Below are positions 19,475 through 59,869 of a stretch of 64,000 nt of DNA, one piece after another. Under the pieces are notes generated by a model. That model saw only the letters and a list, made by a program, of their open reading frames with translations, had not been told where the DNA came from and made no database searches. How positions within the stretch are numbered: the first letter of the stretch is position 1; every line of letters begins with the position of its first letter. Origin of the DNA: Methanosphaerula palustris E1-9c (GTDB lineage: Archaea > Halobacteriota > Methanomicrobia > Methanomicrobiales > Methanospirillaceae); NCBI RefSeq assembly GCF_000021965.1, contig NC_011832.1, positions 1,736,001 through 1,800,000 of the forward strand, in the 5' to 3' direction. A program made the translations under genes and the position numbers.

Positions 19475-20272
19475 TCAGGGGATCTGCATGAAGACCGTCG
19501 TAGCGAGAAAACCTCCCGCTGCGATCAACATCACCACGATCGCCAGGTAGTCAACCCTCCGAAGACTCCGGTCACGGAGCGAGGTCTTCTTCGGATTTCG
19601 GTACCCACGAAGATCGATCGTCAGCCCGAGCACATTCGCCTTGGCCAGCGCATTGGAGACCAGTGGAATGATGATCGGAGTCAGGGTTCGCATCGCACCC
19701 CGAAACCCACGACCAGGGTTGTAAGCCCGTGCCAACTGCGCTTCATGTATCCGCTGCCCCTCAAGCTGCAGACTTGGGATGAAACGAAGCGCGATCAGAA
19801 ACATCAGTGCATAATCTGCCGGCATGTGCATCTTCAACATGGCGTGGACCAGGTCGTGCGGCTGCGTGGAGACAACCAGCAACTGGAATCCAAAGAGCAT
19901 CGCAAAGAACCGAAGGGAGAGGAGCAGGCCGAACTGGACCGCACCGATCGTAATCGGAACCATTCCACCGATCAGAGGCACCCCTGCAGGTATCAGCGTT
20001 CCCATCACTGGACCGGCCTGCATCGTCAGAACCGTCAGCAGCACCAGCGAGATCGTCAGCGAGACGAGTAGCGGCACCTGCCTGAGGAGTTCTTTATGTA
20101 ACCCCGATGCCAGCGCAATCAGAAAGAGCACAATCACCAGCGCCGATACAGATACAATACTGGACGAGGTGATCGCCAGGATCGCAACCAGCACCACCAG
20201 CACCAGTTTGGTGATCGGATTCAGTCGGTGAAGGAAACTGTCTATGCTGACGTATTGCATAATCTGCTGCAT
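19475..20272 (-). CDS. ecfT: ECF transporter transmembrane protein EcfT
   Basis: A 265-residue membrane protein of the CbiQ/EcfT family. It has about five to six hydrophobic helices and the two cytoplasmic coupling motifs with Ala-Arg-Gly type pattern: EAQLARAYNPGRGFRGAMRTL and the preceding RFIPSLQLEGQRI region. It couples the ATPases to the substrate-binding S component. It overlaps the ecfA stop by about 30 nt, ending an S-AA-T operon. The substrate is set by the S component. Confidence 0.88.
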   Translation of the reverse strand: MQQIMQYVSIDSFLHRLNPITKLVLVVLVAILAITSSSIVSVSALVIVLFLIALASGLHKELLRQVPLLVSLTISLVLLTVLTMQAGPVMGTLIPAGVPLIGGMVPITIGAVQFGLLLSLRFFAMLFGFQLLVVSTQPHDLVHAMLKMHMPADYALMFLIALRFIPSLQLEGQRIHEAQLARAYNPGRGFRGAMRTLTPIIIPLVSNALAKANVLGLTIDLRGYRNPKKTSLRDRSLRRVDYLAIVVMLIAAGGFLATTVFMQIP

Positions 20273-21735
20273 ATCACACCTCCGCCACCATACTGCGTAT
20301 CTGCAATGATCATTCCTTTCTCAAGCAGGACAATCCGATCTGCGTAGTCCTGTACAATCTGCATATTATGCGTGACCATCACGATCGTATGTCCCTGCTG
20401 TTGCAGTGCCAGAGCAATCTCCATCACCCGGGTCGACTCTCTGGCGTCGAGCCCGGTGGTCGGCTCATCGAGGACGATCACAGCCGGTTGCATCGCAATG
20501 ATACAGGCGACGGCAAGTCGCTGTCGTTCACCCCGCGAAAGCGAACGGGGATAGACTGTCTGCATCCCGCTGAGGCCGACCTGGTCGAGCACAGCAGAGA
20601 CCCGTTGATCGATATCATCGACCCCCAGATTCTTCAACCCAAACGCAATCTCCCGCTCGACACTCTCCTCAAAGAGCATCGTATCTGGGTTCTGGAAGAC
20701 CAATCCAACAATCCTGGCCAGTTCGGTGATCTGTTGTGAAGCAGTGTCGACCCCCTTGATCATGATCGTTCCTTCAGTTGGCCGGAGAAGACCGTTCAGG
20801 TGCTTGATCAGCGAGGTCTTTCCAGACCCGTTGTCACCGATGAGCGCAACGAACGATCCAGCGCTGATCGAAAGATCGATCCCTTTCAGGGCTTCGAACT
20901 GATCATATCGATGAACCAGCCCACGAATCTCAATCACCGGCGGGTCGGTCATTGTATCGACCCGATATTCAGTCTGCCTGCAACAGGTCGACTCGTCGAC
21001 GATCAGATGGTCACGGTGGAGCACCTTTCGGATCTTTTCGTCTTTAAGCAGGTCTTCAGGTGATCCTTCTGCCACGATCGCCCCCTCGTCGAGAAAGATC
21101 ATCCGGTCAGCAAGCGTGATCAGAGCGTCGAGTTTGTGCTCGACCAGCAGTACCGTCTTTCCTTCATTCTTCAGATCTGAAAGGATATGGAAGAGCATCT
21201 GCGATCCCTCCTCATCCAGTTCTGAGGTTGGCTCGTCAAGGATCAGAATATCAGTCCCGAGGGCGAGGGTGGCAGCGATTGCGACCCGTTGCTTCTGTCC
21301 TCCTGAAAGAGTGTATGGGGCACGGTCCCGAAGTTCTTCTGTTCCCGTAATCGCAAGGACATGCTCCATCCGCCTGATCAGTTCCTCACGGGGCAGATCC
21401 AGATTTTCAAGACCCGAGGCGATCTCTTCTTCAACAGTTGTGAAGATCAACTGCGCATCGGCATCATCAAAGACAATCCCAATGTGCTGACCCAGTTCCT
21501 CGACACCACTGAACGCTGACACATCCTTTCCAAGGATTGCGACCTCACCAGTGGCTTTTCCACCATAATCATGGTGAAGAATACCTGAAGCAGCCAGGGT
21601 GAGCGTGGTCTTTCCGGCACCAGTTGGCCCGGTCACGATCACGACCTCACCCTTTTTGACAGAGAAAGAGAGATCATGAAGAGCAGGGGTGCTCACCCCC
21701 GGATAGGTGTAGGAATAATGAGAGAGGGAGATCAT
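20242..21735 (-). CDS. ecfA: Duplicated ECF ATPase (EcfA-EcfA' fusion)
   Basis: A 497-residue protein with two ABC ATPase domains in tandem. Domain 1 (about 1-235) has Walker A GPTGAGKT, signature LSGGQKQR and Walker B LILDEPTSELD. Domain 2 (about 262-490) has GDNGSGKT, a slightly variant signature LSRGERQR and VIVLDEPTTGLD. Fusing both ATPases removes the need for two genes (EcfA and EcfA'). The first codons overlap the S-component stop (ATGA) and the end overlaps ecfT, so all three are translationally coupled. Confidence 0.92.
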   Translation of the reverse strand: MISLSHYSYTYPGVSTPALHDLSFSVKKGEVVIVTGPTGAGKTTLTLAASGILHHDYGGKATGEVAILGKDVSAFSGVEELGQHIGIVFDDADAQLIFTTVEEEIASGLENLDLPREELIRRMEHVLAITGTEELRDRAPYTLSGGQKQRVAIAATLALGTDILILDEPTSELDEEGSQMLFHILSDLKNEGKTVLLVEHKLDALITLADRMIFLDEGAIVAEGSPEDLLKDEKIRKVLHRDHLIVDESTCCRQTEYRVDTMTDPPVIEIRGLVHRYDQFEALKGIDLSISAGSFVALIGDNGSGKTSLIKHLNGLLRPTEGTIMIKGVDTASQQITELARIVGLVFQNPDTMLFEESVEREIAFGLKNLGVDDIDQRVSAVLDQVGLSGMQTVYPRSLSRGERQRLAVACIIAMQPAVIVLDEPTTGLDARESTRVMEIALALQQQGHTIVMVTHNMQIVQDYADRIVLLEKGMIIADTQYGGGGVICSRLCNTSA

Positions 21736-22256
21736 TCCCTGCCCCTCAGGACAATCCGTGCAGACGGGAAGTACAGGAGCTGCACAATTATTGCATTGGC
21801 AAGTGCAGCCAGAGTCACGATCGGAACGATCACCACAATATAGGCACCGAGGGTCGCATAGGTACTCAGGATCTTAGGCGCCATCATCACCATCGAGATG
21901 ATCACGAATGTTAAACCGCTGGCAATCGTTGCCAGAAATGTCGTGAGACCCGGACCAAAGGACGGCCGGCTCTTCAATACGCGGTACAAACCCAGGCAGA
22001 CCAGGGCACCGATCGGCTCACTGATCAGGTTACCCGGTGGAAAGATCGAATGGCTGATCAGAGCACTGATGATCCCGGCAACCAGCCCAATCCCCAGGGC
22101 TTCTGTTACCGTCGGCAGGATCAGGATGACCGCCAGACAGTAGAACGCGATCACCAGGTTGGCCACAATAGGTCCTGGGATGATCAGCGACAGATACCTG
22201 ACGATCGCCCCGATGGCGAGCAGAATACCAGCGATCGCAATGTCACGCGACTTCAT
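21732..22256 (-). CDS. ECF transporter substrate-binding (S) component, substrate unknown
   Basis: A 174-residue very hydrophobic protein with five to six helices, starting MKSRDIAIAGILLAIGAIVR, with conserved-looking IISALISHSIFPPGNLISEPIG and ending ARIVLRGRE. Size, topology and position at the head of an ecfA-ecfT operon identify it as an S component. It does not clearly match ThiT, BioY, RibU or CbiM types. The nearby thiM-thiE pair hints at a thiamine precursor and the upstream mobA-like gene at something else; neither is strong. GGAG lies 10 nt before the ATG. Confidence 0.7.
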   Translation of the reverse strand: MKSRDIAIAGILLAIGAIVRYLSLIIPGPIVANLVIAFYCLAVILILPTVTEALGIGLVAGIISALISHSIFPPGNLISEPIGALVCLGLYRVLKSRPSFGPGLTTFLATIASGLTFVIISMVMMAPKILSTYATLGAYIVVIVPIVTLAALANAIIVQLLYFPSARIVLRGRE

Positions 22257-28521: not shown

Positions 28522-29217
28522 ATGCATATTATGGAAGGGTTTCTTCCGCTTCAATGGTGCCTGTTCTGGTTTGCAGTCTCTGCACCGTTCATTGCTTATG
28601 GGATCTACCAGCTCAATCGACTCGTAAAAGAGAACAGGAGTACCCTCCCGTTGCTAGCAGTCTGCGGCGCCTTCATCTTCGTCCTCTCATCCCTGAAGAT
28701 GCCGTCGGTCACCGGAAGCTGCTCTCACCCAACAGGGACAGGACTTGGTGCCATCATGTTCGGACCGTTCATCACTTCGGTTCTCAGTATCATCGTCCTG
28801 GTCTACCAGGCGCTCTTCCTTGCACACGGCGGGCTCACAACACTCGGCGCAAACGTGTTTTCCATGGGAATCTGCGGACCTCTTCTGGGTTACTGGGTCT
28901 ACCAGGGAGGAAAGGCGATCAATCTGAATTCGATCGTGAACGTCTTCCTGGCATCAGCCCTTGCAGATATCTTCACCTACGTAATCACGTCAATCCAGCT
29001 GTCGCTCGCGTTCCCGGCAGCTGCCGGCGGGTATATGACCTCGTTCATCACGTTTGCCGGGATCTTTGCCGTGACACAGGTGCCGCTCGCCATCATCGAA
29101 GGGATCTTCCTCACGCTCACCTTCAAGTACATCAACCAGATAAGGCCGGACATTCTCATTCATCTCGGTGTCATCAGTCCGGCGCAGTCAAAGCAGATCC
29201 TAGAGGCGTACTCATGA
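28522..29217 (+). CDS. cbiM: Cobalt ECF transporter S component CbiM
   Basis: A 231-residue membrane protein beginning M-H-I-M-E-G-F-L-P. The N-terminal Met and His2 form the Co/Ni-binding site together with His residues in the first loop (GSCSHPTGTGLGAIMFGP, LFLAHGGLTTLGANVFSMG). About seven helices. It is the metal-binding component of the cobalt importer. The stop overlaps the cbiN start (ATGA). Nickel (NikM) rather than cobalt is possible from CbiM alone, but the following CbiN and the corrin genes in the same window favour cobalt. Confidence 0.93.
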   Translation: MHIMEGFLPLQWCLFWFAVSAPFIAYGIYQLNRLVKENRSTLPLLAVCGAFIFVLSSLKMPSVTGSCSHPTGTGLGAIMFGPFITSVLSIIVLVYQALFLAHGGLTTLGANVFSMGICGPLLGYWVYQGGKAINLNSIVNVFLASALADIFTYVITSIQLSLAFPAAAGGYMTSFITFAGIFAVTQVPLAIIEGIFLTLTFKYINQIRPDILIHLGVISPAQSKQILEAYS

Positions 29218-29540
29218 AGTACACCCTTGAGATCATCGCTATCATGGCTGTTGTGATCTTCGCCGGGATCTTCGTGGTGGTGAACGCCCATATGGCAGGC
29301 ACTCTGGCACCCGGAGAAGTGGCATGGGGTGGATCTGACGATGGTGCGACCAAGATCATCGAATCAACAGGTTACACACCCTGGTTCAGTCCGATCTACA
29401 CACCACCAAGCAGCGAGATCGAGACACTCTTCTTCTGCCTGCAGTCAGCCGCAGGAGCACTGGTGATCGGTTATTTTTTCGGATATTACCGTGGCAGACA
29501 GGAACGAAAGAACATTGAACAGACCAAAAAACAGGTGTGA
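29214..29540 (+). CDS. cbiN: Cobalt transporter auxiliary protein CbiN
   Basis: 108 residues with two hydrophobic helices, near residues 5-25 and 75-95, flanking an extracytoplasmic part with the typical WGGSDDGATKIIESTGYTPWFSPIY and PPSSEIETLFFCLQSAAGA. CbiN is needed for metal insertion into CbiM and is diagnostic for cobalt systems. ATGA overlap with cbiM decides the start. Confidence 0.93.
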   Translation: MKYTLEIIAIMAVVIFAGIFVVVNAHMAGTLAPGEVAWGGSDDGATKIIESTGYTPWFSPIYTPPSSEIETLFFCLQSAAGALVIGYFFGYYRGRQERKNIEQTKKQV

Positions 29541-29588: not shown

Positions 29589-30377
29589 ATGATGGAGCAC
29601 CTCCTCGATGAATATACCCAGTGCAACGCACTGAGCGACCAGGATGCCAGACTCAAGTTGGGCCTTGGCATCGGGGCGATCCTGATCTGTACATCGTCGA
29701 CAACGCTGTTTTCACCTATCTTCATCGCGGTGAGCATGGCCGCGATCACAGTGGGTATCGCAAAGATTCCAATGCGACTCTATCTTGCGCTGCTCACCAT
29801 CCCAATCTCATTCTCACTCACCAGCGGAATCGTCATCCTCTTCACCGGCGGTGGCGGAGCAGCACTCGTTTCACTTCCTATCCCTCCTGGAATCACCCTT
29901 ACGGTGACCACGGGGTCCGCGAACCTTGCAATCCTGCTGATCGCGAGGACCTTCGGGGGGATGTGCGCACTCTATTTCATCGCCCTGACGACTCCGATCA
30001 CCGAGATCTTCTCTATCATGCATTCCCTTCGTCTGCCCTCCAGTCTGATCGATCTCTCGATGCTGATCTATCACTTCATCTTTGTGCTGATTGGTGAAGC
30101 GATCTCAATCCATACGGCACAGGTGCTGAGGCATGGATACGATACCTTTCGGAATAAACTCCAGTCCCTCGGCATGCTTGCAGCGATGCTTTTTATCCGA
30201 GCCTGGCAGCAGGGAGAGGATCTGCTGACCGTGATGGACGCCCGCTGTTACGATGGGAGACTGGACCTCGGCGAAGACCATGCCCGGCCGGGAATTCTGG
30301 CCGTCACATTGGTTCTCGTCTACCTGTCTGTCTGCATTGGAATCGCATATCTCACCGCATCTATGAGAATCTTCTAA
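29589..30377 (+). CDS. cbiQ: Cobalt ECF transporter T component CbiQ
   Basis: A 262-residue membrane protein. The N-terminus has a soluble piece with D-x-R-x-K (SDQDARLKLG), followed by about five helices, and the cytoplasmic coupling motifs include LRHGYDTFRNKLQSLG and VMDARCYDGRLDL. It links CbiM/N to the CbiO ATPase. Tightly spaced between cbiN and cbiO. Confidence 0.9.
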   Translation: MMEHLLDEYTQCNALSDQDARLKLGLGIGAILICTSSTTLFSPIFIAVSMAAITVGIAKIPMRLYLALLTIPISFSLTSGIVILFTGGGGAALVSLPIPPGITLTVTTGSANLAILLIARTFGGMCALYFIALTTPITEIFSIMHSLRLPSSLIDLSMLIYHFIFVLIGEAISIHTAQVLRHGYDTFRNKLQSLGMLAAMLFIRAWQQGEDLLTVMDARCYDGRLDLGEDHARPGILAVTLVLVYLSVCIGIAYLTASMRIF

Positions 30378-30390
30378 GAGGTAATTAGTC

Positions 30391-31626
30391 ATGTCCACCA
30401 TCCTTGAATTCAGAGACGTTCATTACGCATACCCGAACTGTCAGGAATCCCTAAGGGGCGTGAACTTCTCCATATCAGAGGGGGCGAAAGTCGCCCTCGT
30501 CGGCCCGAACGGGGCAGGAAAGACGACCCTCATCCTCTCCTGCAATGGAATTTTGAGACCCACCAGCGGGGAGGTGCTCTTTCATAACAGTCCGCTCAGG
30601 TACGACCGATCGAGTCTGCGTGACTTACGGAAGAAGATCGGCCTGGTCTTTCAGAACTCGGATGCCCAACTCTTCGCCCCGACCGTCTACCAGGACGTCG
30701 CCTTCGGTCCGGTGAATCTTGGTATCGCAAAGGATCAGGTCAAGGCACTGGTCCAGAGGGGACTCTCCGCGGTGGGACTGATTGGATATGAACGACGCCC
30801 ACCACACCTGCTCAGCGGCGGCGAGAAGAAGAAGGCCGCGATCGCCGGCGTGCTGGTCATGGAACCGGATGTTCTGATCTTCGACGAGCCGACCAGTTCC
30901 CTGGACCCGGCTGGGGCTGCCGATCTGATGGAACTGCTCGATGAGTTGAATGTGCAGGGGAAGACGATCATCATCTCGACCCATGACATCGAACTCGCAT
31001 ACCAGTGGGCTGATGATATCATCCTGATGAACAGTGGGCTCGTAATTCACCAGGGGCCTCCAGAAAAGGTCTTTATGGATCCTGCCCTGATCGCAGCCAC
31101 AAACCTGCGCACCCCGGCGGTCCTTGAGACCTTTACAGAACTGGTCGCACGGAAGATCCTTTCAGGGCCGAAGGCTCCGCGGTCGGTCCTTCATCTCGTG
31201 AACTGCCTGGAACAGAGTCTTAACCGGCAGCGTGACGCAAAAGAGTATGGTTCAATCTCGGTCTGCAATGTTGATACGGTGCCGGCAGAAATGATTCATT
31301 GCTGGGTACAGACCCATCCTAACCACCGGAAGGGTGCGATGGGAACCCGGGCAAAGCACCTGGCGACAGTTGAAGAGATCGTCCTCGATTACACCTATGA
31401 TGTGATCGACAAATGCATTCTACGCGCACTCATCGGGGAGTCATCCCTGATTCTAACGAGCACAGGGATGGTCCAACGAGTCGAACGGCGGGTGTTTGCC
31501 TTTGACGAGGAGAGCGGGATTCGGATTGCAGTGGATCTGACTGCACTGGATAGGGAGGTACCACAGGCACCACACTCCCTCCTGCAAGGAGACCACAGGG
31601 AGTGCCAATCTGGTCCACAAAAATAG
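30391..31626 (+). CDS. cbiO: Cobalt ECF ATPase CbiO with unusual C-terminal extension
   Basis: A 411-residue protein. Residues 1-250 are a complete ABC ATPase: Walker A GPNGAGKT (38-45), Q-loop Q88, signature LSGGEKK (141-147), Walker B VLIFDEP (161-167) and H-loop H198. Ordinary CbiO proteins end near residue 270-280. Here another 150 residues follow, with recognisable structure but no family I can name: SISVCNVDTVPAEMIHCWVQ, a HPNHRKGAMGTRAKHL segment, DYTYDVIDKCILRALIG, and SLILTSTGMVQRVERRV. The extension has charged, soluble character, contains Cys292, Cys304, His303, His309, His312 and Cys342, and could bind metal or regulate transport (inference). It completes the cbiMNQO operon. Confidence 0.9.
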   Translation: MSTILEFRDVHYAYPNCQESLRGVNFSISEGAKVALVGPNGAGKTTLILSCNGILRPTSGEVLFHNSPLRYDRSSLRDLRKKIGLVFQNSDAQLFAPTVYQDVAFGPVNLGIAKDQVKALVQRGLSAVGLIGYERRPPHLLSGGEKKKAAIAGVLVMEPDVLIFDEPTSSLDPAGAADLMELLDELNVQGKTIIISTHDIELAYQWADDIILMNSGLVIHQGPPEKVFMDPALIAATNLRTPAVLETFTELVARKILSGPKAPRSVLHLVNCLEQSLNRQRDAKEYGSISVCNVDTVPAEMIHCWVQTHPNHRKGAMGTRAKHLATVEEIVLDYTYDVIDKCILRALIGESSLILTSTGMVQRVERRVFAFDEESGIRIAVDLTALDREVPQAPHSLLQGDHRECQSGPQK

Positions 31627-52526: not shown

Positions 52527-53080
52527 AGTCCTGAACTGACTGAGGGAGGATTACCCGTATCCCCACTGCTGATCTCCTCTTCAGGGTACCCGAGGTCGGC
52601 ACAGACAACCAGCCGGCAGGAGAACAATGCAGCCTCCAGTGCCCCGGCAAGAGCCGGGATGGAGAAGGCTGGGTCTGCAATCAAAAAAGCGATCCTGCCA
52701 TGGTGCACCACACTTACCACCTCCTCGATTGCATGGAGATGGTCCTTTCCATGAGCATTCACGATCATAACCCTGGTCAGCGGAATGCCAATTCGGGCTG
52801 CAGCCAGTTGGAGCGAAGAGATCCCGGGGATAACCTCGCCGCCGAGGTAGCCGAGGCCGGCCAGCATCGGGTCGCCTGTGGAGAGAACGACCGTCGTCGG
52901 TGGGAGCGTCCGGAGGGCTTTGTAATCCTCGATCTCATGAACTGGACAGTCCTTCCTGATACAGTATGCAGCCAGCGCTATCGCACGTGGTGAGCCATAG
53001 ATGCTGCCAGCCCGGGTGATCGCATCAGCAGCTGCCCGGGTCAGCATCCCCGGGCCGCAGCCGACCCCGACCACCTTCAT
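52499..53080 (-). CDS. cbiE: Cobalt-precorrin-7 C5-methyltransferase CbiE
   Basis: A 193-residue SAM-dependent tetrapyrrole methylase: VVGVGCGPGMLTRAAADAI at the start (GxGxGxxxxLT), VVLSTGDPMLAGLGYLG (GDP loop) and PGISSLQLAAARIGIP. CbiE adds the C5 methyl, working with CbiT at C15. Start and upstream cbiD stop overlap (ATGA). It is the last gene of the cobalamin run and its end overlaps the convergent PfkB gene. Confidence 0.9.
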   Translation of the reverse strand: MKVVGVGCGPGMLTRAAADAITRAGSIYGSPRAIALAAYCIRKDCPVHEIEDYKALRTLPPTTVVLSTGDPMLAGLGYLGGEVIPGISSLQLAAARIGIPLTRVMIVNAHGKDHLHAIEEVVSVVHHGRIAFLIADPAFSIPALAGALEAALFSCRLVVCADLGYPEEEISSGDTGNPPSVSSGLYVLFAGLF

Positions 53081-54099
53081 CGCTCCCCTCCAATCGTACT
53101 CCCGTCCCGCTCGATCAGCACCACCTGAACATTTGGGTGCTGCTCGGTGAACTGTTTGAGTGCAGCCTCCATCCGTGGTACAAAATTATCAGTTCCCCGC
53201 AGTTCTTCGACCGTAACACAGCCGGTCCCTTCCAGAATTGAGGGATCGATATACCTCAGGATCAGCCCTGGGAGCCCGCAGAGGATCACCTCGCCATGCG
53301 CAACATCCAGCGCCTCCCGAATCTTGCCACCGATCAACACCACCTCATGATCAGGAAAGAGAAGCCGGGAATACCGGAGTCCGATCCTGCCGGTGGTCAG
53401 CACCACCCGGTCTGCTCCGCTGACCCGGTCCATGATGGTGGAGGTGAGGTGATCGTCCCAGGGCTCGACGAGCCCGGTGGTCCCGAGCAGAGAGATCCCG
53501 CCGATGATCCCGAGCTGCGGATTTAGAGTCAGGGATGCAACAGCAACCCCGTCAGGAACCGAGAGTTTCACCGAGGCCCCTTTACAACTATCACCCAGGG
53601 CTGTTATGCCATCCCTGATCGCCTGAAGAATACAGGCCTCTGCAGAGGTACTGATAGCCGGTTCTCCAACCATCCAGCGGGCGGTGCCCCGGGAATACCG
53701 ACCGATCCCTTCGCCGGCAGAGAGATTCGTCTGGTCGGCAGGCATTGCTTCAGCACGGATCGCCAGTCCGGATGTTACATCAGAGGGGTAATCACCGGAG
53801 TATTTACGGCAGACTGCAACACCGGCATGGAGCGTCGTGACCGGCAACGTTGCGGTGAGGCCGCACGGCAGCCGGATCTGTACTGACGCCACCGGTCCAT
53901 CCAGCGAGAGGACAGCAGCCATAGCCGCTGCAGCAGCCGTAGTCCCGGTGGTGAACCCACGCTTCAGCACCGTACCGGCAGAGGTGAGAACCGCAAAGCC
54001 AGTTGAGACTGCGTTGAGACCGGCCGGATCGGCGCACCGGACCACCCAGTCAGCAGGATATATGAACCCACTGACCGGATCGATGATCCCTTCATTCAT
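53077..54099 (-). CDS. cbiD: Cobalt-precorrin-5B C1-methyltransferase CbiD
   Basis: About 340 residues. The start at MNEGIIDPVSGFIYP gives the family N-terminus; the longer frame upstream is an arginine-rich shadow of cbiC. Conserved parts are LKRGFTTGTTAAAAAMAAVL, GEGIGRY, QLGIIGGISLLGTTGLVEPWD and VLIGGKIREALDVAHGEVILCGLPGLI. CbiD methylates C1 in the anaerobic route and is not related to the other methylases. It overlaps cbiC by 8 nt and cbiE by 4 nt. Confidence 0.93.
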   Translation of the reverse strand: MNEGIIDPVSGFIYPADWVVRCADPAGLNAVSTGFAVLTSAGTVLKRGFTTGTTAAAAAMAAVLSLDGPVASVQIRLPCGLTATLPVTTLHAGVAVCRKYSGDYPSDVTSGLAIRAEAMPADQTNLSAGEGIGRYSRGTARWMVGEPAISTSAEACILQAIRDGITALGDSCKGASVKLSVPDGVAVASLTLNPQLGIIGGISLLGTTGLVEPWDDHLTSTIMDRVSGADRVVLTTGRIGLRYSRLLFPDHEVVLIGGKIREALDVAHGEVILCGLPGLILRYIDPSILEGTGCVTVEELRGTDNFVPRMEAALKQFTEQHPNVQVVLIERDGSTIGGER

Positions 54100-54745
54100 T
54101 GATGATCGTGATGATCTCGTTGATCGCCGCGACCGCGACCGGCGTGCCTCCGCGGGTCCCCTCTGTTGATATCGAGGGAATATCCACCGTTCTGAGCAGC
54201 ACCTTCGACTCGGCCGCATTCACAAACCCGACTGGCGCTCCGATCACCAGCGCAGGCCTCACTCCCTGTTTGATCAGGTCGCAGAGCGTCAGCAGCGCCG
54301 ACGGAGCGTTCCCGATCGCCACGATGGAGCCGGGGAGTCTCTCCCGAAGAGCGAGAAAACCAGCCGAGGTCCGGGTGATTCCCTTCTCCTGAGCTGTCGT
54401 CAGACCATGATCGAGGGCGCAGATTACCTCGCTTTGATGCCCCTTCTTCTGGATTCCAACCTGGACCATCCTGATGTCGGTGATGATCGGAGCCCCTGCC
54501 TTCAGTGCTTGTATTCCAGCCGGAACCGGATCGTTCATAAATCGGAGAAGGTCAGCCATCTCAAAGTCTCCGACGGCCACCGAGCACCGCTGCCGGACCC
54601 GATCTTCATCAGACTCGTTCCCGATCACCGATCTGGCCAGTGTTCTGCTCTTCGCCGATATCGCAAAGGCCTCGGGCGTGACCGCTCCGAGGTCAATATA
54701 CGTATTTTCTGTGGTACCCGCGTGGGGTGATGATTCCTTCGCCAT
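54092..54745 (-). CDS. cbiC: Cobalt-precorrin-8 methylmutase CbiC
   Basis: A 217-residue protein: YIDLGAVTPEAFAISAKSRTLARSVIG, VAVGDFEMADLLRFMNDPV, AGAPIITDIRMVQVGI and RPALVIGAPVGFVNAAESK, all typical of CbiC/CobH, which moves the methyl from C11 to C12 to form cobyrinate. The region where bacterial CobH has its catalytic His reads QRCSVAVGD, which I take to be the archaeal form. Its 5' end overlaps the cbiH 3' end by about 53 nt, unusually long for this cluster. Confidence 0.9.
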   Translation of the reverse strand: MAKESSPHAGTTENTYIDLGAVTPEAFAISAKSRTLARSVIGNESDEDRVRQRCSVAVGDFEMADLLRFMNDPVPAGIQALKAGAPIITDIRMVQVGIQKKGHQSEVICALDHGLTTAQEKGITRTSAGFLALRERLPGSIVAIGNAPSALLTLCDLIKQGVRPALVIGAPVGFVNAAESKVLLRTVDIPSISTEGTRGGTPVAVAAINEIITIINE

Positions 54746-55490
54746 GATCGTCCCTCAAAAAGATTCTGCTCTCCTCTCCACCGAGGATCACAATCGAGTG
54801 CATATCCACCTGGTCCTCGATCGTCCCGACATCCCCGAGCGTGGTGACCAGCACCCGCTCCCCATCCCGGTACGCATTCTGCACCACACCGACCGGAGTC
54901 TCTGCCGGACGATAGCGGGCCGCAATCTCCATCGCCTGGGCAAAGTTATGTGGGCGACCCCGGCTCTTCGGGTTGTACAGCGCGACCGGCACTCCCATCT
55001 GGAAGGCCAGCGAGAGCCGATGTTCGATCACCTCCAGCGGTGTCAGGAGGTCCGACAGACTCAACGTCACAAAATCCCCGGAGAGGGGGGAACCGAGCAG
55101 CGCTGCAGCTGCGTTCGCCGCGGTCACACCCGGGATCACCACGAACGGCACCTTGACCTCTGCATGGTCGAGCACCTCGAGCACAATACTGGCCATCCCA
55201 TAGACACCGGCGTCACCGCCGCTGATCATCGCGACCGTCCGATTCTGAGCAAGAGCGATCGAGCGTTTGGCACGCTCGACCTCCTGCCCCATCGAACTCC
55301 TGATCACCTCTTTACCGGCCAGCAGCGGCTGGAGCGCATCCAGGTAACTCTGGTTTCCAATGACACAGTCAGAGGCAGCGATGGCCCAGACCGCCTCTCC
55401 GGTCATCTGTTCAATTCCGCCGGGTCCGGACCCGACGATATAGAGCCGGCCTCTGGTTTCAGCGTGCAATGGCAATCGTAACTCTCCCAT
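54693..55490 (-). CDS. cbiH: Cobalt-factor III C17-methyltransferase CbiH
   Basis: A 265-residue tetrapyrrole methylase: GRLYIVGSGPGGIEQMTGEA, VAMISGGDAGVYGMASIVLE, FVVIPGVTAANAAAALLGSPL and VALYNPKSRGRP. It performs C17 methylation with ring contraction. Overlaps cbiG upstream by about 30 nt and cbiC downstream. Confidence 0.92.
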   Translation of the reverse strand: MGELRLPLHAETRGRLYIVGSGPGGIEQMTGEAVWAIAASDCVIGNQSYLDALQPLLAGKEVIRSSMGQEVERAKRSIALAQNRTVAMISGGDAGVYGMASIVLEVLDHAEVKVPFVVIPGVTAANAAAALLGSPLSGDFVTLSLSDLLTPLEVIEHRLSLAFQMGVPVALYNPKSRGRPHNFAQAMEIAARYRPAETPVGVVQNAYRDGERVLVTTLGDVGTIEDQVDMHSIVILGGEESRIFLRDDHGEGIITPRGYHRKYVY

Positions 55491-56331
55491 ACACTTTCTT
55501 CTCCATGATCATCTCTCTCTTCGTTGATAATGCCAGCGCAGCAGGCTCTGCGACCCCGACAAGCCCGATCCTGTCAGCCCCGGACCTGCTCGGGGGAGAC
55601 TCGGCATTGATCGTCTGGTCATCCAGAAAGATCAGATCGCCACCCATGGCGAAGACCCCATCGATCAGTCCTGCCTCGTCTCTCTTCTGGACGGTCGTGG
55701 CATAACAACGGACGTCATCAACTGCTATCCCAGCCGCTGACAGGGCCTCTTCAACACTCTGCTGCACCTCCAGGGGCGTAACCCCCCGCCGGCATCCGAT
55801 CCCGACCACATACTCGCCTGAAGCGACCAGAAACGAGACCGCTGGTCCCGCAATCACGATCGCAGGTCCATCGATACGATAGACCGGGACATCACGTTCA
55901 AGGATCGCCGCATTGACGGTCCTGGTCGAAGGACGGTTCACGACATCGCATTGTCGGGCTGTAGCGATCCCCTCGACCGACGGAAGGCCGAGGGACTCGG
56001 TCGCGGTCGTCAGTACCGGCAGAAGGCCGGCTTTTGAAAGTTTCTTGGCAAGGTCGTTGGCACCGTGATGCCCTCCGACCAGGGGAATTGCATACCGAAG
56101 GTCTGGGCTGACCACGACCACCGCTGGGTCCTGCCACTTGTCCTTGAGGAGGGGGGCCACCTGCCTGACCACGATCCCGGCGGACATCACCGCCACGATC
56201 CGGTTGTAAACTCCCCAGACCTCTGCAAAGACGCCGGCAACGTAGTCACGGTGGTCTGCATCGAGAAACCTGGCGATCATCGCCGCCTCTCCGCTGAAGC
56301 GGGGGAGCGCGATCACCACGGTCCTGGTCAT
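55459..56331 (-). CDS. cbiG: Cobalt-precorrin-5A hydrolase CbiG
   Basis: A 290-residue protein with an N-terminal CbiG domain (about 1-115; ALPRFSGEAAMIARFLDAD, MSAGIVVRQVAPLLKDKWQDPAVVVV, IPLVGGHHGANDLAKKL) and the C-terminal CobE/CbiG domain (about 160-280; VGIGCRRGVTPLEVQQSVEEAL, TVQKRDEAGLI). It opens the ring-A acetate lactone and releases acetaldehyde. Coupled to cbiF by an ATGA overlap. Confidence 0.92.
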   Translation of the reverse strand: MTRTVVIALPRFSGEAAMIARFLDADHRDYVAGVFAEVWGVYNRIVAVMSAGIVVRQVAPLLKDKWQDPAVVVVSPDLRYAIPLVGGHHGANDLAKKLSKAGLLPVLTTATESLGLPSVEGIATARQCDVVNRPSTRTVNAAILERDVPVYRIDGPAIVIAGPAVSFLVASGEYVVGIGCRRGVTPLEVQQSVEEALSAAGIAVDDVRCYATTVQKRDEAGLIDGVFAMGGDLIFLDDQTINAESPPSRSGADRIGLVGVAEPAALALSTKREMIMEKKVYGRVTIAIAR

Positions 56332-57050
56332 GAGTACAGCACCGAATGCTGGTACCCGGTCTGTTCGGGGTCCACAACCCCACCGATCAGGATCAGCGCA
56401 GTCTTTGTAATCCCGGCCTCCCGAGCTTTCCCTGCAATATCCCGAATCATCCCGCGGACGATGATCTGGTCTGGCCAGGTCGCATGATAGACAACTGCCA
56501 CGGGCGTGTTCTCCGGTCGGTCGAGCTTGGCCAGCACCTCCTCAAGGTGTTCGGTTCCGAGAAAGACGACCAAAGTCGTCCCGAGCGCAGAGAGAGCAGT
56601 GATCTTATCCTCTTCGAGGGTAGCCCCTGCCGGCCGGGTGACGATCAGCGAGTCTGATACCCCCCGGAGGGTCAGCTGCGTTCCAAGGGCCGCCGCCGCA
56701 CCGAACATCGAGGAGACACCCGGCACGATCTCAACAGAAACCCCCTGCTCTGATAGCGCACGGATCTGTTCGACGATGGCCCCATACAGGGAAGGGTCCC
56801 CGCTGTGCAGTCGCACAACTTTTTTACCCTCCCTAACCGCCGAAACCATCGCCTCGACCAGTTCGGCGAGGCTCATTCCCCAGCTGTCCAGTTTCACCGC
56901 TGCCCTGCTCGCACTGACCAGGGCAGGGTTCACCAGGGAACCGGCATAGATCAGCACCTCGGCCTCCCGAAGGAGATCCATCCCCTTCACCGTGATCAGC
57001 CCGGGATCGCCTGGGCCGGCTCCGACGATAAAGACCTTACCGAGGGTCAT
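56328..57050 (-). CDS. cbiF: Cobalt-precorrin-4 C11-methyltransferase CbiF
   Basis: A 240-residue methylase: VFIVGAGPGDPGLITVKGMDLL, VVRLHSGDPSLYGAIVEQI, VEIVPGVSSMFGAAAALGTQLTLRGVSDS and VVFLGTEHLEEV. It places the C11 methyl. ATGA overlaps on both sides. Confidence 0.93.
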   Translation of the reverse strand: MTLGKVFIVGAGPGDPGLITVKGMDLLREAEVLIYAGSLVNPALVSASRAAVKLDSWGMSLAELVEAMVSAVREGKKVVRLHSGDPSLYGAIVEQIRALSEQGVSVEIVPGVSSMFGAAAALGTQLTLRGVSDSLIVTRPAGATLEEDKITALSALGTTLVVFLGTEHLEEVLAKLDRPENTPVAVVYHATWPDQIIVRGMIRDIAGKAREAGITKTALILIGGVVDPEQTGYQHSVLYS

Positions 57051-57655
57051 GAGCGCCTCGCAAACATGACGCTGAAGTAGTTGCTGGTCTGTTGCAGTTC
57101 CTCGTTCCGGTAGATCTTCATCTCGTCCATGAACATCCGCTCGACCAGCACAAAATCTGAGAAGCCCTCCTGCATCAACTGGTCGCGGGTTGCCTGTGGT
57201 TTCTTCACCTTCAGCAAAATTTGAGACGAAGGGACTGCTCCATCAGAGACGATGAACCCACCTGACAAGGATACATCGGCCACCGATGCAAATGCCGTGA
57301 TCGACGAAATCCCGGGCTCGGTCGAACAGATGATTGCAGGATACCGCTCCTTTATGACCGCACAAAGACGGGAGAAGGTCGAGTAGAAGTTCGGGTCACC
57401 CAGGATCCCGAGCACGACGAGCCCGTCCTTGGCGGTCGCTGCGATCTGATCGGCGTTCTGTTCCATCGATCGCTTGATCTGATCCTGATCCTCGATCATC
57501 GGAAAGTCAAGTATCTCGGCCTCCCGGTATGGAGAGACCAGCGCCTGTGCGATCTGGCCCGGCACATAGACGGCATCTGCCTCGGTCAGCAGCCTGACCG
57601 CTCGAAGGGTCAGCAGTTCCGGGTCTCCTGGGCCGAGACCGAGACCGACCAGCAT
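57047..57655 (-). CDS. cbiL: Cobalt-factor II C20-methyltransferase CbiL
   Basis: A 202-residue methylase starting LVGLGLGPGDPELLTLRAVR (the CbiL/CobI N-terminus), with VVLGILGDPNFYSTFSRLCAVI and STEPGISSITAFASVADVSL. It adds the C20 methyl, the first corrin-specific methylation after cobalt insertion. Slightly shorter than typical CbiL (220-240). Its start overlaps the cbiT stop. Confidence 0.9.
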   Translation of the reverse strand: MLVGLGLGPGDPELLTLRAVRLLTEADAVYVPGQIAQALVSPYREAEILDFPMIEDQDQIKRSMEQNADQIAATAKDGLVVLGILGDPNFYSTFSRLCAVIKERYPAIICSTEPGISSITAFASVADVSLSGGFIVSDGAVPSSQILLKVKKPQATRDQLMQEGFSDFVLVERMFMDEMKIYRNEELQQTSNYFSVMFARRS

Positions 57656-58179
57656 CAGGCCACCCTCCCGGTCACAATAAAGACCGGATCGATCGGTCGG
57701 AAGATCAAACTTTTCCCCAGCGGATATGACCGCGCCACCTGCACCTGCACTACCTCTTCAAAGATATCCAGTTTTTTCATCACCCGCACCGCCTCATATA
57801 CCGTGTCGAGAAGGACCGCATTCACCACGATCGTCCTCTTCACCCGCTCTGCAAGCAGGTCAAGGACCGTCTCAAGCGACTGCGATCCCCCGAGGAAGGC
57901 ACAGTCCAGCGAAGGAATTTGCCTGAGCAGATCCGTCGCCTCTCCACAGTGAAATTCTATATTTGAGGTCCCTGCCTCGAGAGCAGCCTGTTCTGCGACA
58001 GCGATTGCTTCCTCCCGCCGGTCCACGGCGATCACCGATCCGGCATCTGCAGCCATTGCAATCGCCACCTTTCCGGTGCCACAGCCAATATCTGCGACAG
58101 TATCCCCGCTCTGCACTCCGAGCTTAAAGAGTGAGATCGCCATGACCTCATCCTGTGTCGGTCCGCCCTTCAGCACCAT
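57655..58179 (-). CDS. cbiT: Cobalt-precorrin-6B C15-methyltransferase (decarboxylating) CbiT
   Basis: A 174-residue Rossmann-fold methyltransferase: GGPTQDEVMAISLFKLGVQ, VADIGCGTGKVAIAMA (SAM motif I), VIAVDRREEAI and DCAFLGGSQSLETVLDLL. It methylates C15 and decarboxylates the ring-C acetate. It is the first gene after a 56-bp gap in an otherwise overlapped cluster, so a promoter may lie before it. Confidence 0.93.
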   Translation of the reverse strand: MVLKGGPTQDEVMAISLFKLGVQSGDTVADIGCGTGKVAIAMAADAGSVIAVDRREEAIAVAEQAALEAGTSNIEFHCGEATDLLRQIPSLDCAFLGGSQSLETVLDLLAERVKRTIVVNAVLLDTVYEAVRVMKKLDIFEEVVQVQVARSYPLGKSLIFRPIDPVFIVTGRVA

Positions 58180-58185
58180 AATCTT

Positions 58186-58217
58186 AGTAAAATAAAGTTA
58201 CCTTAACAGAAGAATAT
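58186..58217 (-). promoter_or_regulatory. Candidate internal promoter before cbiT
   Basis: The only real gap in the tetrapyrrole cluster contains AT-rich boxes on the minus strand (CAAATATTC near 58210 and CTTTATTTTAC near 58190-58199). Spacing would give a nearly leaderless cbiT message. It could allow cobalamin genes to be expressed apart from the hem genes; this is inference. Confidence 0.3.
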
Positions 58218-58235
58218 TTGTCCAGAAAGGGGAGA

Positions 58236-58988
58236 TCAGAAGGGGATCAATGGTGGATAAGCCGGATCATAGAGTGTGACCACGTCACCGATCACAATCA
58301 CTGCCGGCGGTTTCACACCTGCCACGACCGCCTTCTCCCCGATATCTTCGAGTGTCCCCACCGTGACCCGCTGGTCAGCCCTGAATCCCCGCTCGATGAT
58401 CGCAACCGGTGTCGTCCCGCTCCGGCCGTTCTTCACCAGCAGCCCGGTTATTTTGGACAGGTTCTTCACCCCCATCAGGATCACGATCGTCCCCCGCGAA
58501 CGGGCAAGCAGTGACCAATCGAGTGCAGACTCCGGCTTGGTCGGATCTTCATGACCGGTCATGATCGTGACCTGCGAGGCGAACCGTCGATGCGTCAACG
58601 GAATCCCGACCGAGGCCGGCACCGCGATGGCACTGGTGATACCGGGGACCAGTTCGGCCTCGATCCCAGCCTGCCGGATCGTCTCCAGTTCCTCGCCACC
58701 GCGCCCGAACATGAAGGGATCGCCCCCTTTAAGCCTGACGACCTGCTTCCCGACCCTGGCACGGTCGACGATCAGCGCCTCGATCTCGTCCTGCTCGAGG
58801 GTGTGATTCCCCCCATACTTCCCACAGTCGATCAGTTCTGCATCCTCAGGGAGCGAAGAGAGGATCTCCTCACCAGGGAGCTGGTCATACAGGACCACCT
58901 CAGCAGCATCGATCACCTCCCGCGCGCGCTGGGTCAGCATCCCTTCACTTCCCGGACCTGAGCCCACGATGAATACCTTACCGTTCAT
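58236..58988 (-). CDS. cobA: Uroporphyrinogen-III C-methyltransferase
   Basis: A 250-residue SAM methylase (SUMT): VFIVGSGPGSEGMLTQRAREV, VVRLKGGDPFMFGRGGEELE, LVPGITSAIAVPASVGIPLTHR and the late IVILMGVKNL. It methylates C2 and C7 of uroporphyrinogen III to precorrin-2, the branch point to cobalamin, siroheme and F430. Start overlaps the hemC stop (ATGA). Confidence 0.94.
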   Translation of the reverse strand: MNGKVFIVGSGPGSEGMLTQRAREVIDAAEVVLYDQLPGEEILSSLPEDAELIDCGKYGGNHTLEQDEIEALIVDRARVGKQVVRLKGGDPFMFGRGGEELETIRQAGIEAELVPGITSAIAVPASVGIPLTHRRFASQVTIMTGHEDPTKPESALDWSLLARSRGTIVILMGVKNLSKITGLLVKNGRSGTTPVAIIERGFRADQRVTVGTLEDIGEKAVVAGVKPPAVIVIGDVVTLYDPAYPPLIPF

Positions 58989-59869
58989 TCTTCCAACCCC
59001 AGTGTTCTGACCGCGTCGCTGATCAGATCAGCCGCCTGTACCTTCAATCTTCTTCCGATCTCACGCGCCTCTCTGACATCGGACGGATCAGCCTCGATCC
59101 GTTGATAACGCGAACCGTCCAGTGCCAGCACCTCGGCGATCAGGTGGCCGTCCCTGCAATAGACCCCTTCCGGAACGAAACAGCCGCCACCGAGTTCCTC
59201 CATCACAGCCCGCTCGAAGACCACATCCTGCCGTGTCCCCTCATGATCGAGGGCACAGGCCAGGGTCTCGATCAGGGACGGATCCTCTCTGCAGACCACA
59301 GCCACCGTGCCCTGATTGGGGGATGGAACAAACTCATCGACTGGCAGCCGCTTTCCTTTGAGCGAGAGACCAAGCCGTTGAAGGCCTGCTTCGGCGAGGA
59401 CGATCCCATCATATTCACCAGCCTTCAGTTTTCGAATCCTGGTGTCGACATTGCCGCGGAGCTGCTTCACCTCCAGGGATGGATCATGCCGAAGGAGTTG
59501 TGCACGCCTGCGAGTGCTTGAAGACCCGATGATCTGTGGATTCTCCACCGCATCGACCGCAAGAAAATCAGCCGGGGAGTTCCGCTTGAGCACGGCACAG
59601 GTGAGTACACCTGGCGGACGAAGAGCGGGGACGTCCTTGAGACTATGGACTGCACAGTCAATCTCCTGCGCCTCGATGGCGTCGTCAAGCGCCCGTACAA
59701 AGACACCCTGCCCCCCAATCTCATGGAGGGGAACGCCGGTGACGGCATCACCATGAGTGGTGATCACCACAGTCTCAGTCTCGATGCCCCGTGAGGCCAG
59801 CATGGAGCAGACCTTCTCGGTCTGGACCCGTGCCAGCGCACTGCCTCTGGTTCCTACTCGTATCGACAT
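58985..59869 (-). CDS. hemC: Hydroxymethylbilane synthase HemC
   Basis: A 294-residue porphobilinogen deaminase: [57 protein letters not shown], and the dipyrromethane-attaching Cys in [11 protein letters not shown]. It polymerises four porphobilinogens. hemD (uroporphyrinogen-III synthase), the expected next enzyme, is not in the window. Overlaps hemL by 16 nt. Confidence 0.95.

Follow-up and report, generated by a model that had tools for sequence, protein, structure and literature searches.

A conserved DUF7839-like domain fused to the CbiO ATPase of a putative CbiMNQO cobalt transporter in Methanosphaerula palustris and its relatives

Results

A putative cobalt transporter operon with an extended ATPase

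The window analysed here, a stretch of 64,000 nucleotides from the genome of Methanosphaerula palustris E1-9c (one contig of 2,922,917 bases), carries on its forward strand the genes of an energy-coupling factor (ECF) transporter: cbiM (28522..29217, substrate-specific membrane subunit), cbiN (29214..29540, cobalt-type small subunit, whose ATG overlaps the cbiM stop), cbiQ (29589..30377, transmembrane coupling subunit) and cbiO (30391..31626). The last of these is a single unbroken open reading frame of 411 codons, encoding a protein of 411 amino acids in which the ATPase is continued by an extra domain. The products of the first three genes score far above the respective Pfam cut-offs (PF01891, 206 bits against 23.1; PF02553, 69 bits against 25; PF02361, 132 bits against 25), while CbiO reaches 245.4 bits with TIGR01166, whose curated cut-off is 211.8, in a match that covers residues 1-245 and beyond. 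It also scores 105 bits with ABC_tran, and its ABC motifs are intact (Walker A GPNGAGKTT, signature LSGGEKK, Walker B VLIFDEP, H-loop STHD). With CbiM, CbiN and CbiQ encoded beside CbiO, the transporter can be assigned from its sequence as a putative CbiMNQO cobalt transporter with Co(II) as the predicted substrate, in line with the cobalt operon named in a preliminary description of this DNA. CbiN has been described as specific for cobalt uptake, and NikN for nickel (PMC2667541).

The same description had placed corrin genes 21 kb away, and a corrin-ring biosynthesis cluster (cbiD, cbiG, cbiT and four tetrapyrrole methylases; 53080..59027, reverse strand), given here as context only, indeed lies at 53.1-59.0 kb, about 21.5 kb from cbiO. 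Another ECF transporter of the same general type, consisting of a CbiQ-like gene and a 543-codon double-ATPase open reading frame, occupies 19478-21873 on the reverse strand; searches found no extra domain in it. An Rfam scan of the window found no riboswitch, neither a cobalamin riboswitch nor another known RNA element.

The ATPase had been thought complete by residue 250. Homology to solved ECF ATPases (CbiO and EcfA2) extends to residue 274-278, however, so that the ATPase is not finished at that point, and residues of about 241-280 are, judging by these alignments, the ordinary ECF C-terminal helical segment. The ATPase part thus corresponds to residues 1 to about 280 (30391..31230, forward strand, helical segment included). 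The solved CbiO of CbiMQO (5x3x/5x41) and CbiO1 (3gfo), of about 275-280 residues, are homologous to it nearly end to end and match this part alone; none of the PDB chains matches the extra domain.

Extent and conserved residues of the extra domain

Alignments, together with hhalign comparison to DUF7839 regulators, delimit a DUF7839-like domain at about residues 287-380 (31249..31530, forward strand). The extra domain of 150 residues proposed earlier is real, but it resolves into a conserved core of about 95 residues and a variable tail (residues 381-411; 31531..31623, forward strand) that is unmatched in relatives, the last 25-30 residues (about 386-411) having no counterpart there. AlphaFold2 single-sequence models of the domain alone, made with two boundaries, had pLDDT of 38-39, too low for a fold search. 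The architecture varies between lineages. In CbiOs from other families of the phylum (L076-L081, about 433-465 residues), an extra beta-rich stretch, which the window protein does not have, stands between the ATPase and the DUF7839-like domain, whereas in those of family f9 (L091, L094-L098, L100 and L101) the domain is shortened, its first strand and helix being missing, perhaps as a vestige or as a minimal version.

The GAMGTRAK motif, already recognized in the preliminary description, spans residues 315-322 and is kept in aligned relatives in the form GAMG[TS]xAK. In a diverse alignment of 26 sequences, G318, A346 and G349 are invariant in all 26, and M317, M360 and K322 are nearly so.

Distribution and age of the fusion

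A protein search detected the domain in 192 of the 232 genomes of the order Methanomicrobiales, including 123 out of 135 high-quality genomes. The remaining one fifth or so of the order's genomes had no match; many of these, but not all, are incomplete (12 of the 135 high-quality genomes are among them). Across the phylum Halobacteriota, an alignment-based search found it in 174 of 393 sampled genomes. In every open reading frame read, the domain lies C-terminal to a CbiO ATPase, the exceptions being draft contigs in which the frame is cut off or interrupted; L009, L228 and L229 are such broken fusions. In L228 (2182-3339), from one draft genome, a single in-frame stop falls in cbiO exactly between ATPase and domain, probably because of an error or recent damage to the gene.

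Free copies of the domain beside other cbi genes, which had been suggested as something to look for, did not turn up. Among the open frames checked, the shortest (G042 and G043) proved to be broken fusions, and the only free relatives are the helix-turn-helix (HTH) regulators described below. Scans of viral and plasmid sequences gave no match to the domain, and two bacterial matches from a single-sequence contig scan were judged spurious.

The genome of M. palustris itself encodes a second domain-bearing CbiO, at 2478 kb, which is anciently separate from that of the window, and a third CbiO, at 1074 kb, without the domain. The second belongs to another cbiMNQO operon (L135 6229-10415, about 2477-2481 kb), directly 3' of which, on the same strand, lies a gene for a His-rich cation-efflux (CDF-like) protein. 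Similar genes (cluster c24) are also found 3' of cbiO in L137 and L138, so metal uptake and export may be encoded together.

On a tree of 55 sequences built from the ATPase part only, the presence or absence of the domain requires 2 changes, compared with a mean of 17 when labels are shuffled; this tree is unrooted, so that gain and loss of the domain look the same on it, and several of its deep branches are weak. The fusion is real, old and conserved, and the best explanation is that the domain joined CbiO early in the history of the methanogenic and related archaea of the Halobacteriota.

Association with the cobalt-type transporter

In the 54 cbiO contexts that we read, CbiN was encoded in the operon of 27 out of 33 domain-bearing CbiOs and in none of 21 domain-less ones. 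The raw count for the latter was 1 of 21, due to L185 (1624-7929), and became 0 after subunits were assigned by strand; in this locus a domain-bearing CbiMNQO operon and a domain-less PDGLE-type operon stand side by side in divergent orientation. A Fisher test on the uncorrected table (1/21) gave 1.5e-8, a value that overstates the strength of the association because related genomes were counted as independent and the genomes were chosen, not drawn at random. Among the 21 domain-less cbiO contexts, a PDGLE small subunit, presumably the nickel-type partner, was nearby in 13, and neither PDGLE nor CbiN in 8. As for the six domain-bearing cbiO genes with no detected CbiN, three accompany a cobalt-type CbiM, and for the other three the operon, as far as it was read, contains no CbiM of that type. 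In about 8 of 19 contexts, genes of corrin biosynthesis (cbi) lie beside the domain-bearing cbiO. Among the sampled contexts, then, the domain goes with the cobalt-type transporter and not with the paralogous PDGLE (inferred nickel-type) one.

Homology to DUF7839

Searches with the window domain itself returned no match in Pfam (E<=10), NCBIfam or PDB sequences, and it gave no hit at the gathering cut-off of 27 bits of PF25211 (DUF7839), with which the paralogue at 2478 kb scores 19.8 bits. Weak matches to this family were obtained for 14 out of 24 close relatives, and CbiOs of distant archaea (G504, G390, G539 and G253) score 43-62 bits, above the cut-off. When a profile of window-type domains was compared by hhalign with the C-terminal part of DUF7839 HTH regulators, the E-value was 6.7e-6 (probability 85%), compared with 0.0078 or worse for 11 control families. 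Adding intermediates to the profile lowered it to 3.4e-11, a figure that is partly circular because the intermediates resemble both families. PBP_like (PF12727), which the sequence pattern had led us to suspect, reached an hhalign probability of only 0.1-0.3%. On these profile comparisons, the extra domain is homologous to DUF7839.

DUF7839 otherwise occurs as the C-terminal domain of a protein of ~265 residues with an N-terminal winged helix, a euryarchaeal regulator of the HTH_24/MarR type. Homology between the two proteins spans about 95 residues. In the regulator the domain is fused to a DNA-binding domain, whereas in the window CbiO, which has no N-terminal winged helix, it is fused to an ABC ATPase; the regulators also do not have GAMGTRAK, but carry a G-x-E-A motif at that place. 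By eye, four CbiOs (L084, L087, L089 and L093) resemble the regulator also in the beta-rich stretch on the N-terminal side of DUF7839.

The regulator was found in 27 out of 28 Halobacteriota genomes checked and, among control genomes, in Methanocaldococcus jannaschii, Haloferax volcanii and Methanosarcina acetivorans; at E 0.001 the DUF7839 family matched none of the other 11 control genomes, and the domain's absence from bacteria is stated for these control genomes only. Its neighbours include an ArsR-type gene (PF09824), HypF and an SF2 helicase, the last two named by eye, and cobalt genes were not found in the neighbourhoods read. The ArsR-type gene adjoins the regulator in most of L156-L173, where HypF and the SF2 helicase are frequent, and in the M. 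palustris genome (L102 477-1824, about 212-214 kb) the regulator overlaps the end of the upstream ArsR-type gene. Together, the regulator and its neighbours make up a conserved regulatory cluster of methanogens that is apparently uncharacterised. In the open-access literature we found no paper that describes either the CbiO-fused domain or the DUF7839 regulator family.

Discussion

Methanogens need cobalt for corrinoids. We propose, with a probability of roughly one half, that the window encodes the ATPase of a CbiMNQO transporter to which a DUF7839-like domain became fused early, and that this domain is a sensor of a small ligand that causes trans-inhibition. It would act as a cytoplasmic sensor on CbiO, binding a small ligand that signals a sufficient supply of cobalt or corrin, and in the ligand-bound state it would hold the two ATPases in a conformation unable to complete their cycle. 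A regulatory, feedback-gating role is our best guess and one that we hold with moderate confidence, mainly by analogy: in MetN and in ModC from M. acetivorans, the C-terminal domain binds the imported substrate and halts ATPase cycling (PMC10710835), which makes a feedback sensor probable here as well. Like the window CbiO, M. acetivorans ModC and Escherichia coli MetN carry a cytoplasmic domain C-terminal to the nucleotide-binding domain and serve importers of scarce nutrients. However, they are not ECF transporters, Pfam searches found no sequence kinship between their domains and that of the window, and ligand-dependent inhibition is a feature of these two proteins that for the window CbiO we propose from sequence and analogy. 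In particular, the window C-terminus gave no Pfam match to NIL (MetN) or to MOP/TOBE (ModC/MalK), nor was NIL or TOBE found in its relatives, so that no known ABC C-terminal domain accounts for it.

The idea that the domain senses something and gates the transporter had been raised before, and it gains plausibility from the domain's homology to the C-terminal part of a winged-helix regulator. The nature of the ligand is a separate matter, and for a corrinoid or a nucleotide, both suggested earlier, the evidence gives neither support nor contradiction. Conservation of Lys, Asp, Ser/Thr and Gly in the domain makes a small ligand, organic or anionic, more likely than a metal site made of Cys and His, and because the neighbours of the regulators have no cobalt link, the domains of CbiO and regulator may well bind different ligands.

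The main rival to a sensor is a docking or assembly domain, which would anchor a partner, for example a cobaltochelatase receiving Co(II), or stabilise the ATPase dimer, and would sense nothing. Its place after the ECF C-terminal helical segment is compatible with this, as is its association with the CbiN-containing transporter and with cbi genes, but kinship with the C-terminal domain of a DNA-binding regulator suits ligand binding better and the length and insert of the domain differ widely among lineages; we consider docking possible, though rather unlikely. It is improbable, in our view, that the domain is a degenerate enzyme with a fold of the MptE/thiamin-pyrophosphokinase type, binding a pterin- or nucleotide-like ligand. 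One relative shows a weak MptE-like match (E 0.006), MptE scores best of all control families in hhalign (E 0.0017-0.008) and the strand order is similar by eye, yet the hhalign probability of 5-16% lies under any accepted threshold.

Sensing of Co(II) itself through Cys and His ligands has in its favour the several Cys and His residues of the window sequence, which had been noted correctly, and the presence of Cys 292 and Cys 342 in 21 of 24 sequences of the order. Within the order, however, Phe, Tyr, Ser or Gly can stand in their place, and beyond it neither Cys is conserved (Cys 292 in 9 out of 18 sequences, Cys 342 in 7 out of 26); the His residues of the domain are poorly conserved, and across the diverse alignment of 26 sequences no Cys or His is conserved, several being private to the window protein. 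The argument for metal sensing fails for this reason, and a direct Co(II) sensor is very improbable. Finally, an annotation or frame-fusion artefact, to which the stop at the junction or broken frame in a few draft genomes (L228 and L229) might point, can be dismissed because the fusion recurs throughout the order and phylum and in the paralogous CbiO of the same genome, with a continuous frame in most matched genomes of several families, single-contig genomes included.

If the sensor reading holds, a broader, tentative and on balance doubtful extension would be that the CbiMNQO of methanogens is an allosterically gated ECF transporter, whose ATPase carries a sensor domain akin to that of a widespread euryarchaeal transcription factor, so that transport and transcription may respond to related small-molecule signals of cofactor status. 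More immediately, a conserved domain that sits on a cobalt pump and is missing from its presumed nickel-type sister, encoded in the same genomes, gives a concrete candidate through which cobalt uptake could be controlled post-translationally, and the CbiO domain may offer a handle on the ligand of the widespread and apparently uncharacterised family of archaeal DUF7839 regulators.
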